Shown: piece by piece, positions 21,527 through 25,487 of the stretch
Position numbering within the stretch: the stretch's first letter is position 1
How the letters are laid out: each line of letters starts with the position of its first letter
Assembly: GCA_016794595.1 (NCBI GenBank)
Contig: JAEUJN010000076.1
Span: forward strand, 1-64,000
Direction of reading: 5' to 3'
Length of the DNA: 64,000 bases
DNA from: Kineosporiaceae bacterium
GTDB lineage: Bacteria; Actinomycetota; Actinomycetes; Actinomycetales; Kineosporiaceae
Notes under the pieces: model-generated
The model's database searches: none
The model's input: the letters and a program-made list of their open reading frames with translations, nothing else
What the model was told of the DNA's origin: nothing
Position numbers and translations under genes: made by a program

Positions 21527-21925
21527 TCAGGGCAGGATCGCGCCGACCTGGGCCGAGGCGGCCCGGGCCTGGATGCGGACCAGCGCCAGGTTGAGGTTCT
21601 TCGGCCCGGTGATCGCCAGCACGGCGGACCGCCCGGCGGCGTACACCACCAGGTACCCGTCCTCGCCGCGCACCACCGTCTCCTGAAAGCTGCCCAGGGA
21701 ACTGCGCTCGCTGACCTGTCTGCCCACGCCCAGGGCGGTGGCGGCCAGGGCGGCGATCCGGTCCGAGTCGGCGTCGGGCACGTCGTGACACAGGGACAGC
21801 CCGTCCTCCGAGGCCACCATCACCCCGGTCAGCTCGGGAATGGCTCGACGGATCTCGCCCACCAGGCTGGTCAGTTGCTCCTCGGTGCTCCCCACGCCTG
21901 CGCCGGCGGTGACCGTGGTGTTCAT
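21527..21925 (-). CDS. Roadblock/LC7 domain protein (first of two)
   Basis: A 132-residue cytosolic protein spanning one Roadblock/LC7 domain, recognisable from SLVGEIRRAIPELTGVMVASEDGLSL and the later DGYLVVYAAGRSAVLAI strands. In bacteria such proteins regulate or dimerise with MglA-like small GTPases. Streptomyces conservons pair one with a kinase, a DUF742 protein and a GTPase, none of which are here. ATG 21925 has AAGGGGA 5-6 nt before it. It is divergent from an operon with a second Roadblock gene at 23593. Its function is unknown; polarity or motility control is a guess. Confidence 0.85.
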   Translation of the reverse strand: MNTTVTAGAGVGSTEEQLTSLVGEIRRAIPELTGVMVASEDGLSLCHDVPDADSDRIAALAATALGVGRQVSERSSLGSFQETVVRGEDGYLVVYAAGRSAVLAITGPKNLNLALVRIQARAASAQVGAILP

Positions 21926-21966
21926 CGACGTCCCCTTCGGATTGTGACGCTGTGTGGCGACCGCTC

Positions 21967-21988
21967 CATGAGGCGATAGTGCCTCATG
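21967..21988. promoter_or_regulatory. 22-bp palindrome in divergent Roadblock/OmpA spacer
   Basis: CATGAGGC and GCCTCATG form perfect 8-bp arms around GATAGT. It lies 41 bp before the minus-strand Roadblock start, in a 274-bp divergent spacer. Position and symmetry suit a dimeric repressor operator. The sequence GGCGATAG inside it loosely resembles a WhiG/FliA -10 box, but no -35 match accompanies it. Confidence 0.5.
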
Positions 21989-22199
21989 CCCGGGCTCATC
22001 GGTCACCGGATGCCGGACCGACACCCGGAAGGCGAGGGGTATTCGCAGGTCAATGGGGGCTTTTGCGCTGGATAGTCCGCCGCGCCGCAGGACGAAAGGC
22101 CCTCGGTCGCCGACCTGGACCCCTTTGACACTCGTACGGACGGTGAGCATCCAAGGGATTCAGGGCCATGATCGATCACCGCGAGTGTACGAGTGGGGG

Positions 22200-22994
22200 G
22201 TGGACAGCATCATCGGTCGTCACCGAGCGAACCTGGCCGTGGGCGCCGGCCTGGCAGCCCTGACGCTGGTGGGCCTCGGCTCGTGGTGGTCCGCGGGTGA
22301 GATCGAGGACGACCTCACCGAGCGGGGGCGGGCGGCTCTGGCCGCCGCCGGGATCACGGCCACCGTCGACGTCGAGGGCCGGGACGCCGTGCTCACCGCT
22401 CGGCCGGCCGACGACGGGCGACCACCCGCGGCCGTCGACGTGATCCGCCGCGTGCACGGCGTCCGGCGGATCAGCTGGACCGTGGCGCCGGCGAGCGACG
22501 GGCAGCCGGCACGCGGGCCCTCGCCGTCCGCGACACCCACGACACCCACGCCCATCTTGACGCCCACCGGCACCTCCACCTCGCCGCCGACCCCCTCGCC
22601 CACCGCCCCGCGCACACCCACACCCAGCACGGAACCGGACCTCGAGGCCTGGCCGTCCCCCGTGATCGGCTTTGCCAGCGAGCAGACAGCGCTGACCACC
22701 ACGGCACGCTCCCAGCTGGACGCCGTGGCGCGCCGGCTGCGGGAGGCTCCCGAGGTCGTGGTCGTGATCCGTGGGCACACCGACGATCTCGGACCCACGG
22801 CCCACAACCGCGCGCTGTCCCTGGCCCGGGCCGAGGCCGTGGCCGCGCACCTGCGGGACGCCGGGGTCGCCGCCGAGCGGCTGGAGATCCGGGCCCTGGG
22901 CTCGGCCGAGCCGGTCCGCCCCAACGACACCGCCGCGGGACGCGCGGCGAACCGGCGGGTCGAACTCGTCTACCGCACCGGGAGCACACAGTGA
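22200..22994 (+). CDS. Membrane-anchored BON-like/OmpA-like peptidoglycan-binding protein
   Basis: A 264-residue protein. One hydrophobic segment (about 10-30) is followed by a BON-like region (about 35-95), a Thr/Pro-rich linker (about 100-145) and an OmpA_C domain (about 150-262). The OmpA_C domain contains RGHTDDLGPTAHNRALSLAR and NRRVELVY, and OmpA_C domains bind peptidoglycan. BON plus OmpA_C resembles mycobacterial ArfA. GTG 22200 is preferred to GTG 22185 or further upstream because it places the membrane segment at the N-terminus; no good ribosome binding site decides this. Its stop overlaps the next start (GTGA). It probably anchors the operon's products to the wall. Confidence 0.8.
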   Translation: MDSIIGRHRANLAVGAGLAALTLVGLGSWWSAGEIEDDLTERGRAALAAAGITATVDVEGRDAVLTARPADDGRPPAAVDVIRRVHGVRRISWTVAPASDGQPARGPSPSATPTTPTPILTPTGTSTSPPTPSPTAPRTPTPSTEPDLEAWPSPVIGFASEQTALTTTARSQLDAVARRLREAPEVVVVIRGHTDDLGPTAHNRALSLARAEAVAAHLRDAGVAAERLEIRALGSAEPVRPNDTAAGRAANRRVELVYRTGSTQ

Positions 22995-23596
22995 CGGGGT
23001 TCTCCTACCTGGTCGGCCAGATCGCCGTCCTGCTCCTCGTGAGCCTGGTGCTGGGTGTGCTGGCCGGCCGCTTCCTCTGGCCGCCCCGGGGCGCGGCCGG
23101 CACCCCCACACCCGTCACACCGGGCCCGGGGCCGGGGGCGTCATCCGCGCCCGAGGATGAGGGCGAGCCCTCCGAGAACGGACCCGCGGTCGAGGAACTG
23201 GTGCAGCGCCTGAGCGCGATGCAGGCCGGCGTCCGCAGCCTGCGGCAGACCGTGACCACGCTGTCCGATCACAAGGACGTGGAGCTGGGCCGGGTGGAGA
23301 GCCAGGCGCTGCAGGCCATGGACTCCCTGATCGCCGGTCATCAGCGGCGGGTCGCCCACCTGCAGGACCTGCTGGACGACGCGCGCACCCGCAGCCACCG
23401 GGACGAGCGTGAGCTGGAGGCGGAGCGCCGGCACACGTTGCGCCTACAGGCCGCGCTGGTCGACCGCGACGAGCGCGCCGCCGACCTGCTCGGCCGGCTC
23501 TCCCGGGCCGAGGACCGGCTGCGCGAACTCGAGCTGCTCGGGGCGTCCCCGCGCCCCGGTCCACGCCCGACCCGCACGGTTCAGGAGCCGACATGA
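22991..23596 (+). CDS. Membrane-anchored coiled-coil protein
   Basis: A 201-residue protein of no recognised family. One N-terminal membrane segment (about 5-30: IAVLLLVSLVLGVLAGRFLW) and a Pro/Gly-rich spacer lead to a cytosolic coiled coil (about 58-180). The coil is rich in Leu/Glu/Arg heptads such as VEELVQRLSAMQAGVRSLRQ and ERELEAERRHTLRLQAALVD. It overlaps both neighbours by 4 nt, so translation is coupled. Topology suggests a link between the OmpA-like protein outside and the Roadblock protein inside. That is inference. Confidence 0.7.
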   Translation: MTGFSYLVGQIAVLLLVSLVLGVLAGRFLWPPRGAAGTPTPVTPGPGPGASSAPEDEGEPSENGPAVEELVQRLSAMQAGVRSLRQTVTTLSDHKDVELGRVESQALQAMDSLIAGHQRRVAHLQDLLDDARTRSHRDERELEAERRHTLRLQAALVDRDERAADLLGRLSRAEDRLRELELLGASPRPGPRPTRTVQEPT

Positions 23597-24189
23597 GAAC
23601 GCCCCGACGCGATCGCCGCTCCCCCGCGGCGCGGCCTTGGTTCGCCAGCGCGCCCGCGGGCCGCACCGAACCGAGACCCACGGATCTGGCCCCGACAGAC
23701 CAGGCCCCGACAGACCAGACCCCACCGGATCAGGCCCCACCGGATCAGGCCCCACCAGACCCCGCCCCCACCCACCAGTCCGCCCAGCCCCCCGCCACCC
23801 CCACCCCGAGGAGCCCGCTCATGACCAACCGTGCCGAACAGATCACCGAGGTGCTCGAGCGGCTCGTCAGCAGCTCCTCCGAGATCGAGGGGGCCGCACT
23901 GGTCACGGTCGACGGCCTGGCCCTGGCCTCCGTGCTCGCCGGAGGATCGGACGAGGACCGGGTCTCGGCCATGGCCGCGGCCATGCTGGCCATGGGTGAG
24001 CGGACCGTCTCCGAGCTGCGCCGAGGCACCCTCGAGCAGGTCTTCGTCAAGGGCAACGGCGGCTATGTGCTCCTCATGCAGGCCGGGTCCGAGACTGTCC
24101 TGGAGACCATCTCCCGCTCCAGCGCGCGACTGGGCCTGGTGCTGCTCGAGATGAAGGACGCCGCCCGGGCGCTGGCGAGGCTGGCCTGA
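23593..24189 (+). CDS. Roadblock/LC7 domain protein (second), Pro/Asp-rich N-terminus
   Basis: A 198-residue protein whose last ~120 residues are a Roadblock/LC7 domain (QITEVLERLVSSSSEIEGAA, then GGYVLLMQAGSETVLE). The first ~76 residues are low complexity with repeated PTDQA/PPDQA units. Two starts are plausible. ATG 23593 overlaps the upstream stop and has AGGAG 5 nt before it. ATG 23821 has GAGGAG 7 nt before it and would give a bare 122-residue domain. Both products may be made. It could pair with the other Roadblock protein, since these domains dimerise. No partner GTPase is in the window. Confidence 0.82.
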   Translation: MRTPRRDRRSPAARPWFASAPAGRTEPRPTDLAPTDQAPTDQTPPDQAPPDQAPPDPAPTHQSAQPPATPTPRSPLMTNRAEQITEVLERLVSSSSEIEGAALVTVDGLALASVLAGGSDEDRVSAMAAAMLAMGERTVSELRRGTLEQVFVKGNGGYVLLMQAGSETVLETISRSSARLGLVLLEMKDAARALARLA

Positions 24190-24192
24190 CCC

Positions 24193-24741
24193 GTGACCAC
24201 GAGCATCCCGGCGGCGGCCCCACCGCACCGGCCCCTGCGGGACATGACCACCGAGGAGATCGTCGGCACCGGCCGCCCCCATCGGCTGACCTACCACGAC
24301 GGCACCAGCCGCACGGTGCTCGTCACCGACCTCGAGACGTCCTTCCCCACCGGGGAGCTGATCGTCTCCCAGACCGACACCGACGGCGTGATCACGATGT
24401 GCAACGAGGCCTTCGTGCTCATGTCCGGCTGGTCACGGGCGGAGCTGCTCGGCTCGCCGCACGCCATCCTGCGCCACCCCGACATGCCCCGGGCCGCCTT
24501 CGCCGACCTCTGGGCGACGGTCGGCTCCGGACGGCGCTGGAGCGGCTACGTGAAGAACCTGCGCCGGGACGGTGGCTTCTACTGGGTGTACGCCACCGTC
24601 ATCCCGAAGATCCGGGCTGGGGTGATCCTCGGCCACACCTCGGTCCGTCGGCAGCCCTCACGACGCCGGGTCGAGGCCGCCGAGGCGCTGTACGCCACGA
24701 TGCGCAGCGAGGAGAACGACGCCTCCCGAGTGCAGCCGTGA
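24193..24741 (+). CDS. Single PAS-domain protein, Aer-type
   Basis: A 182-residue soluble protein with one PAS domain (about 55-145). It has the pattern seen in the FAD-binding PAS of the aerotaxis receptor Aer: ISQTD-like start, then NEAFVLMSGWSRAELLG, ILRHPDMPRAAFADLW and WSGYVKNLRRDGGFYWVYA. There is no kinase, cyclase or methyl-accepting domain, so it must signal through a partner. Starts at GTG 3 nt after the Roadblock stop and overlaps the next gene by 4 nt. Redox or energy sensing via FAD is inferred from the motif. Confidence 0.85.
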   Translation: MTTSIPAAAPPHRPLRDMTTEEIVGTGRPHRLTYHDGTSRTVLVTDLETSFPTGELIVSQTDTDGVITMCNEAFVLMSGWSRAELLGSPHAILRHPDMPRAAFADLWATVGSGRRWSGYVKNLRRDGGFYWVYATVIPKIRAGVILGHTSVRRQPSRRRVEAAEALYATMRSEENDASRVQP

Positions 24742-25487
24742 GGTACCGCTTCGCGATCAGCCCCGACGTCCACGCCCGGGACCTGCCCACCTGGTTCGTG
24801 CTCAACACCCGGCTGCAGCGGGCACTGGGACGGCCGGGCCGGGCCACCGTCCACGACGACTTCGGGGCACTGCACCGGGCCTGCGCCGCGGGCGAGGTCG
24901 ACCTGGTCTACGCCAATGCCGCCGACACCGTCGAACTGGTGCGCGAGCACGGCTTCCTGCCGGTCGTGCGGCCGCGAGAGGTGGCCGACGAGGCCGTGGT
25001 CGTGGTCTCGGCCACAGGTCCCGTGACCGAACTCGACGACGTGCCCGACCGGCTCACCGTCGCGGCGACCGATGCCCCGGACGTCGAGCGGATCTGCCGC
25101 ATCCTGCTCGAACCGGCCGACCTGGACGCCGGGGCGATCGACCTCACAGTGCTGCGCAACTACGTGCTGGTGGCCAAGGCCGTGATCACGGGCCAGGTCG
25201 AGGCGGGGTTCTTCCTGCGCCGGGCCCACGACAATCTCTCGGCCACCACCCGAGGGATGCTGCGTCCGCTGATCTCCAGTCGGATCCACGTGGTCAGCCA
25301 CTGCCTGCTGCTCGCCCCGGGCCTGGCCGAGTTGCGAGAGCCCCTCCGCGACTTCCTGCACACCCTGAGCCGGGACCCGGCCGAGCAGTCCACCCTGGCC
25401 GAGCTGGGCGCCCCTCACGGGTGGCAGCCGGCGAACGAGGACGACGTGGAGTTCATGGTCGATCTCATGGACGCCTTGAAACAGTGA
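24738..25487 (+). CDS. PhnD-like substrate-binding-fold protein lacking a signal peptide
   Basis: A 249-residue protein resembling the phosphonate/phosphite-type periplasmic binding domain (PhnD-like): RYRFAISPDVHARDLPTWF at the start, GEVDLVYANAADTVELV and a VLVAKAVITGQVEAGFF segment. The N-terminus has no signal peptide, lipobox or membrane helix, so it appears cytosolic. No ABC permease or ATPase genes are near. It starts at a GTG inside the stop of the PAS gene and ends the five-gene operon. I infer a repurposed binding domain sensing a small ligand for the Roadblock/PAS system. The family assignment is moderately sure. Confidence 0.65.
   Translation: MRYRFAISPDVHARDLPTWFVLNTRLQRALGRPGRATVHDDFGALHRACAAGEVDLVYANAADTVELVREHGFLPVVRPREVADEAVVVVSATGPVTELDDVPDRLTVAATDAPDVERICRILLEPADLDAGAIDLTVLRNYVLVAKAVITGQVEAGFFLRRAHDNLSATTRGMLRPLISSRIHVVSHCLLLAPGLAELREPLRDFLHTLSRDPAEQSTLAELGAPHGWQPANEDDVEFMVDLMDALKQ

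Follow-up and report, generated by a model that had tools for sequence, protein, structure and literature searches.

A Roadblock locus in a Kineosporiaceae bacterium joins two recurring gene units and may encode a wall-anchored sensor scaffold without a dedicated small GTPase

Bacterial Roadblock proteins are known chiefly for regulating small GTPases. Passages of a 2014 survey predict that the Roadblock superfamily regulates NTPases, count 328 MglB homologues uncoupled from MglA, delimit a small actinobacterial MglB clade that is exclusively orphan, and state that no orphan MglB had been characterised (PMC4316618). Group 1 Rup neighbourhoods, as outlined in parts of the same source, encode a transmembrane (TM) OmpA protein, a coiled coil and a signalling output together with a GTPase, and were proposed by the authors to constitute a complex signal transduction system (Wuichet and Sogaard-Andersen, PMC4316618). 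Here we describe a Roadblock locus of a Kineosporiaceae bacterium (GCA_016794595.1, contig JAEUJN010000076.1, positions 1-64,000 of the forward strand; this whole stretch of 64,000 nucleotides is referred to as the window), whose genome measures 4.95 Mb and is 99.4% complete. It is composed of two units, each of which is also found in other genomes. Unit A pairs a Roadblock protein (RB1) with a TM/coiled-coil protein, in most cases accompanied by a TM/OmpA-like protein and frequently by a protoglobin; unit B comprises a second Roadblock protein (RB2), a PAS protein and a PhnD-like protein. We read the locus, with slightly less than even confidence, as a wall-anchored Roadblock sensor scaffold that would work without a dedicated small GTPase.

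The RB1 gene, on the minus strand, faces the plus-strand genes for the OmpA-like, TM/coiled-coil, RB2, PAS and PhnD-like proteins, and the features are as follows:

21527-21925, minus strand: RB1, a Roadblock/LC7 protein of the RB1 clade of the module (Pfam Robl_LC7, 6.2e-17)
21926-22199, no strand: divergent intergenic region between the RB1 and OmpA-like genes, in which no sigma-70-like site was found
22200-22994 (alternative start 22185), plus strand: OmpA-like protein with a TM anchor, a possible BON-like block, a proline-rich linker and an OmpA-like, putatively peptidoglycan-binding domain (Pfam OmpA, 2.2e-19)
22991-23596, plus strand: TM/coiled-coil protein with the motif GRVESQALQAMD, its coil predicted to be cytosolic (no Pfam family)
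23821-24189 (the open reading frame can open at 23593), plus strand: RB2, a Roadblock/LC7 protein (Pfam Robl_LC7, 7.3e-17)
24193-24741, plus strand: stand-alone Aer-type PAS protein (best Pfam match PAS_3, 2.6e-12)
24738-25487, plus strand: PhnD-like protein, predicted to be cytosolic (Pfam Phosphonate-bd, 2.6e-30)

The gene families and coordinates given in a preliminary description of this locus were borne out, with the Roadblock pair and the OmpA, PAS and Phosphonate-bd assignments confirmed by Pfam. Likewise, the six genes include no GTPase, kinase or DUF742, as that description had said, and its view that the locus is a coherent Roadblock module lacking a GTPase held up in the window.

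The resemblance to the Group 1 Rup neighbourhoods, as far as the survey's passages on them go, lies in the joint encoding of a signalling protein, a TM protein with a C-terminal OmpA domain and a coiled-coil protein, the last two of which the locus possesses (the coil being judged from sequence). However, those neighbourhoods are built on a Rup GTPase core with a cyclic di-GMP enzyme or a histidine kinase and a cytoplasmic coil, whereas the present locus has a Roadblock core, a TM-anchored coil and sensors encoded as separate proteins; Pfam detected neither a cyclic di-GMP enzyme nor a histidine kinase among the six genes, and no GTPase gene lies at the locus, GTPases in the rest of the genome having been sought with a Frankia module GTPase as query. 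A second group of relatives comprises the MglA/MglB loci with PATAN (DUF4388), which passages of the survey place with Group 1 and 5 MglA (PMC4316618) and whose Roadblocks are related to RB1 and RB2 (e.g., in Thermus, L084). These differ from the window and Propionibacteriaceae loci, which have no GTPase at the locus, and OmpA-like and coil genes were not seen in those that we read (L084, L116, L117, L124 and L126-L128).

Conservons (CvnA-D) also place a Roadblock protein in a membrane sensory operon, and four are present in the window genome. Of its six Robl_LC7 proteins, four lie outside the window, each accompanied by a large kinase-like protein and a GTPase in conservon style; the one set checked by Pfam contains HATPase_c, Robl_LC7, DUF742 and ATP_bind_1. 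From the conservon complement of kinase, Roadblock, DUF742 and GTPase in one operon, the present locus has the Roadblock only, and a conservon derivative was rejected as RB1 and RB2 fall outside the CvnB set in the tree described below. In Myxococcus, an MglC dimer is reported that lies between two MglB dimers, and the MglA-binding region of MglB is not needed for this (PMC7949163), so that Roadblock dimers can stack on other Roadblock dimers. In the eukaryotic Ragulator, p18 reportedly wraps Roadblock dimers in a membrane-anchoring scaffold; nevertheless, both assemblies are described as acting in GTPase pathways, and their resemblance to the present locus is a functional analogy only. The C-terminal domain of the OmpA-like protein matches mycobacterial OmpATb/ArfA (2kgw, by Foldseek), which has the domain order TM anchor, BON-type and OmpA-like, although the BON match is weak here; to our knowledge, OmpATb/ArfA is not encoded beside Roadblock genes. 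In agreement with the preliminary description, which knew of no such system, no description of a Roadblock protein with a protoglobin, PhnD or Aer-type PAS protein was found among the matches listed in the open-licence PMC literature.

Both window Roadblocks score over the Robl_LC7 cut-off of Pfam. RB1 shares 44-61% identity with 11 RB1 proteins from Kineosporia, Frankia, Millisia brevis, a Micrococcales metagenome-assembled genome (MAG), Propionibacteriaceae, Thermus caliditerrae and a deep actinobacterial MAG. In a Roadblock tree of 57 rows, it falls in a 20-row RB1 set (support 99/96), to which Thermus forms the next branch (86/85); the full RB1 group occupies one side of a branch at a weak support of 60/39. 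RB2 of the window belongs to a 12-row set with the RB2 proteins of RB2-PAS-PhnD operons (100/99), and CvnB (6 rows) constitutes a separate set (98/92). The Frankia RB2 may represent another line, because grouping it with RB2 needs two changes. Rows L043_10433 and L128_5213 are long and their placement is unsure; among the module loci, L068, L213, L217, L222 and L224, as well as the duplicate or cut contigs L062, L075, L076 and L083, were left out of the tree.

Unit A was found in Kineosporia, Millisia, the Micrococcales MAG and 14 Propionibacteriaceae genomes (G875, G876, G877 and 11 more), and in partial form in Frankia (RB1 and coil) and Thermus (RB1 and protoglobins). For the named records, 49 stretches fitted the search pattern and 12 were confirmed; many of the loci reported here served as seeds for the locus profiles, which makes the scores of seed loci high by construction, and L207-L228 were not among the seeds. 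In Millisia and the Micrococcales MAG the order is RB1-protoglobin-OmpA-coil-GTPase; in the latter (L077:2-8068), the whole module lies between gyrB-like and gyrA-like genes, named from their translations. Four Frankia-type genomes (G201, G243, G454 and G469) carry V4R, then coil-GTPase-unknown-RB2 facing RB1, without OmpA; the G462 contig has coil and GTPase and ends before RB1, the Parafrankia contig (L076) breaks off beyond RB2 and the unknown gene, and a second locus of Frankia AgB1.9 (L080) has V4R and RB1 but neither coil nor GTPase. Kineosporia carries V4R, protoglobin and RB1, with OmpA-coil farther along and no GTPase within 18 kb; a GGDEF gene is also found near this locus. The order in Thermus caliditerrae (L084) is DUF4388-GTPase-protoglobin-RB1-protoglobin-PAS/GGDEF/EAL, and the deep actinobacteria G719 and G728 carry RB1, RB2, GTPase (two in G719) and genes of DUF4388 type, the latter recognised by our own profile only. 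Among the Propionibacteriaceae, an OmpA gene lies by RB1 in 11 of 14 genomes and a protoglobin beside RB1 in 8 of 14, and no GTPase gene was seen in the stretches read around RB1 in any of them. Protoglobin, V4R and DUF4388 were each checked by Pfam in one protein; a DUF4388-like label for Kineosporia L043 11084-12007 and a Roadblock-like label for Millisia L074 12811-13302 found no Pfam support and were not relied on.

Within the window's family (13 genomes, including Kineosporia sp. R_H_3), module-type Roadblocks were present only in the window genome and Kineosporia, among the fetched matches. At E 1e-15, the RB1 profile matched 65 of 396 phylum genomes; from these, 13 stretches in 12 genomes besides that of the window were read and, except for G719/G728, proved to be other Roadblock loci, mostly with DUF4388-like genes and with a GTPase in some and not in others. 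Three loci (L118, L119 and L121, of G282, G165 and G185) bring together a DUF4388-like, a Roadblock and a 124-residue protein, no GTPase being seen close by, and are possibly another GTPase-free Roadblock set; their genomes belong to one large-genome genus, probably Streptomyces. In the deep actinobacterial L124 and L126, RB2-type Roadblock, DUF4388-like and GTPase genes adjoin genes whose translations resemble pilB and aroE products, a hint that type IV pili may have been an ancestral association.

Unit B recurs in the Propionibacteriaceae, where the second Roadblock match is RB2. Of the 13 RB2 loci (12 from a search of 147 genomes, plus G875), 12 display RB2-PAS-PhnD in the same order and strand, with PhnD partial in L224; the thirteenth, L222, retains only short PAS and PhnD remnants. 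Across the 147 Propionibacteriaceae genomes, 10 carry both RB1 and RB2, 3 RB1 only (one being G941), 2 RB2 only and 132 neither (E <= 1e-10), a co-occurrence with a Fisher p of 1.9e-11, uncorrected for kinship. The units are physically joined in the window and, differently, in G941, where OmpA-coil faces RB1-PAS-PhnD; all six genes stand together at one locus in the window only. The gene set is unlikely to be due to chance, since both halves recur in other genera. By contrast, the five-gene order that the preliminary description took as a unit gave way to two separate units, and a fixed five-gene system was rejected because of the split arrangement in Propionibacteriaceae and the scarcity of PhnD: 148 of 149 genomes of the order, 393 of 394 of the class and 395 of 396 of the phylum lacked a good match to the window protein, among the matches listed (up to six candidates per genome in the class and phylum searches, matches of E ~1e-4 to 7e-4 not being counted).

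GTPases were sought with a profile (A8) made from 12 MglA/CvnD-type GTPases, which gave matches of 169-248 bits in Millisia, the Micrococcales MAG, Kineosporia, two Frankia-type genomes, Thermus and G884. In G875, G876 and G877, the only matches scored 24-34 bits; all five were read, and from their motifs we take them to be IF-2 (L136, L137 and L138) and Der (L146 and L147). In 13 further Propionibacteriaceae genomes, judged by score and frame length, the best match reached 38 bits and two genomes had none; all these matches lie in frames of more than 500 residues, except for a 20-bit P-loop match in a 266-residue frame of G941. A single-domain MglA-type GTPase was thus found by this profile in none of the 16 Propionibacteriaceae genomes with unit A and/or B, three of which (G877, G887 and G1029) are almost entirely contained in a single contig. 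Propioniciclava flava has one Robl_LC7 protein, RB1, and no MglA-type GTPase was found in it. In the window genome, the Frankia module GTPase as query recovered only the four conservon GTPases at E 0.001. The module appears to descend from GTPase-coupled Roadblock modules and is apparently GTPase-free in at least the Propionibacteriaceae.

The window coil protein has a homologue in Kineosporia (36% identity), and the coils vary in sequence and in length (134-1145 residues). The pattern R-[LMVI]-E-x2-A-x2-A-[MLW]-[DE], drawn beforehand from several of the scanned proteins, occurs in 19 of the 23 scanned loci, once in each and invariably within the coil frame; those of the 19 that are closely related do not count as independent. 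The exceptions are L210 and the C78 paralogue (L061), which lack the pattern, L212, which has a close variant of it, and L213, whose contig ends before the coil. As proposed in the preliminary description, the protein is predicted to be TM-anchored; its coil is predicted to be cytosolic because Lys/Arg residues after the N-terminal helix exceed those before it in 13 of 14 coils, with one tie. A second TM protein and TM-coil pair lies on contig C78 of the window genome (L061:9060-9871 = G000:C78:40059-40870), without OmpA domain or coil motif, and no Roadblock gene was recognised in the 19 kb read around it. In the Frankia-type loci L065, L066 and L069, a large TM-coil protein with a similar N-terminus is found beside tad-pilus-like genes (names from translations).

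An AlphaFold2 (AF2) model of the OmpA-like protein from six sequences (mean predicted local distance difference test, pLDDT, 74; predicted template modelling score 0.47) comprises a helix, a small alpha-beta-beta-alpha-beta block, a disordered proline-rich linker and a confident OmpA fold, and is poor at residues 1-30, which together with the linker are mostly below pLDDT 50. Among the 50 Foldseek matches listed, the closest are the peptidoglycan-binding OprF, OmpA and Pal domains, and the matches include 3td5 (a diaminopimelate-peptide complex) besides OmpATb 2kgw; the protein may accordingly be expected, from its modelled fold, to bind peptidoglycan. The alpha-beta block is at most suggestive of a BON-like domain, with the P. 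flava protein at 14.5 bits against the Pfam cut-off of 27 and no match in the window protein. Placement of the OmpA-like domain outside the membrane is weakly supported and leans mainly on the known role of OmpA domains; in 7 of 8 proteins the net charge ahead of the helix exceeds that behind it, which favours N-in. In some Propionibacteriaceae (L082:9021-9739, L211 and L212), the gene lies in two overlapping pieces at the proline-rich linker, which may reflect a frameshift, a sequencing error or a real split.

The PAS protein groups with the PAS domain of E. coli Aer (8dik, E 2.9e-33), and both contain an RHPDMP stretch in the alignment, which we assume has a role in FAD binding; flavin redox sensing is thus a plausible function, in line with the redox role put forward in the preliminary description. 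The PhnD-like protein has 12 relatives of 48-53% identity with the same N-terminus, which in all 13 aligned rows starts within the domain and shows no export signal (by eye; L222 and L224 were omitted from the alignment, A9). It is predicted to be cytosolic because no signal peptide was seen, as the preliminary description had suggested. No ABC permease gene was seen by eye next to PhnD among the called genes, and an uptake system was rejected for want of both an adjoining permease and an export signal. A comparison of PhnD with PDB sequences gave no match at E 0.01, and a single-sequence AF2 model (pLDDT 41) was not used. The nearest plasmid relative, on the one plasmid record matched (Sphaerotilus L154, NZ_CP035710.1; 32% identity), directly follows a SpoIIE-type phosphatase gene, an arrangement that suggests PhnD-like proteins act as sensors elsewhere.

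Starting from the computed gene content, orthology, recurring linkage, coil motif, predicted coil topology and lack of a detected MglA-type GTPase in the 16 Propionibacteriaceae genomes, we infer the following mechanism. The OmpA-like protein would cross the membrane once and hold peptidoglycan outside, while the coiled-coil protein, anchored by its N-terminal helix, would present the conserved motif in the cytosol, where RB1 dimers would dock. RB1 and RB2 would then stack, as Roadblock assemblies can, with the state of the assembly set by sensors: in the window, the Aer-type PAS protein would respond to flavin redox and the PhnD-like protein to a small-molecule ligand, and in the relatives a protoglobin would sense gas through haem. 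The output would be where, or whether, the envelope assembly forms, rather than a kinase or second-messenger enzyme at the locus. More tentatively, these loci might represent a GTPase-independent signalling class in which Roadblock dimers docked on a wall-anchored coil are themselves a switch that interchangeable sensor proteins for gas, redox state and ligands would read.

Several observations weigh against this scaffold reading. Five lineages of relatives retain an MglA-type GTPase in the locus, and the ancestral mechanism therefore probably used one. The absence of a GTPase is consequently no general trait: the preliminary description had set against its own proposal the case of an MglA-type GTPase consistently encoded with these genes elsewhere, and one is present at the G201, G243, G454 and G469 (Frankia-type), Millisia, Micrococcales MAG, Thermus and G719/G728 loci, but in none of 16 Propionibacteriaceae. 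Profile A8 is weak for classical MglA, scoring a Thermus MglA-like protein at 33 bits, as low as IF-2, so that a very divergent partner could escape it, although this match lies in a 231-residue frame and a classical MglA would therefore show as such. Furthermore, the module is rare: out of 396 phylum genomes, only three (the window genome, G719 and G728) give an RB1 match exceeding 150 bits; RB2 occurs with no match to RB1 in two Propionibacteriaceae genomes; the OmpA gene was unrecognised at 3 of 14 RB1 loci (G887, G914 and G961, one contig being only 4 kb); and Lys/Arg counts alone favour N-in for the OmpA-like protein in 2 of 8 only.

The four conservon GTPases of the window genome could also serve in trans, and RB1 and RB2 might still regulate one of these CvnD proteins. 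RB2 relatives in Frankia and deep-branching actinobacteria do adjoin a GTPase; nonetheless, each CvnD-type GTPase is encoded beside its own CvnB, which stands apart in the tree, and no GTPase of this kind that could be lent was found in the 16 Propionibacteriaceae genomes, which leaves this explanation unlikely in our judgement. We consider it slightly less likely still that the Roadblocks act on another, non-MglA-type NTPase encoded off the locus: no NTPase gene is common to the RB1 loci read, and an ABC ATPase gene adjoins the coil gene in L081, L208 and L210 but not in others, even if a distant partner would escape the GTPase profile and passages of the survey predict the superfamily to be NTPase regulators (PMC4316618). 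That two independent systems lie together by chance would agree with the different places of the units in the 10 Propionibacteriaceae genomes with both Roadblocks, but is very improbable given that the units co-occur by genome and are joined in two different ways (window and G941). Least probable of all is a decaying remnant of a GTPase-coupled module, for even though the GTPase seems lost from the ancestral kind of locus and L222 and L224 hold short PAS and PhnD remnants and a partial PhnD match, respectively, the RB1, RB2, PAS and PhnD frames of the window are uninterrupted and well conserved, and a coil motif is kept across families.

Regarding gene boundaries, the preliminary description had the plus-strand genes joined by 4-nt overlaps or a 3-nt gap. 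The 4-nt overlaps of OmpA/coil and PAS/PhnD and the 3-nt gap of RB2/PAS stand; the coil/RB2 overlap, which requires an RB2 start at 23593, is doubtful because RB2 probably begins at 23821. GAGGAG precedes the ATG at 23821, the RB2 proteins of relatives have no comparably long N-terminal extension, and GC by codon position is 0.75/0.75/0.80 at 23593-23820 versus 0.71/0.48/0.92 in the RB2 domain; on the other side, AGGAG also precedes the ATG at 23593, and a proline-rich stretch alone could raise GC at codon position 2. A search of the locus sequence found no promoter- or terminator-like site. The six-gene set adjoins rpsB-tsf-pyrH-frr, as named from translations.

Taken together, this module family provides a defined set of partners, and genomes such as that of Propioniciclava flava, for a direct test of a GTPase-free Roadblock role. 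It also offers a candidate docking motif and a set of putative haem, flavin and ligand sensors that may be tied to the cell wall.

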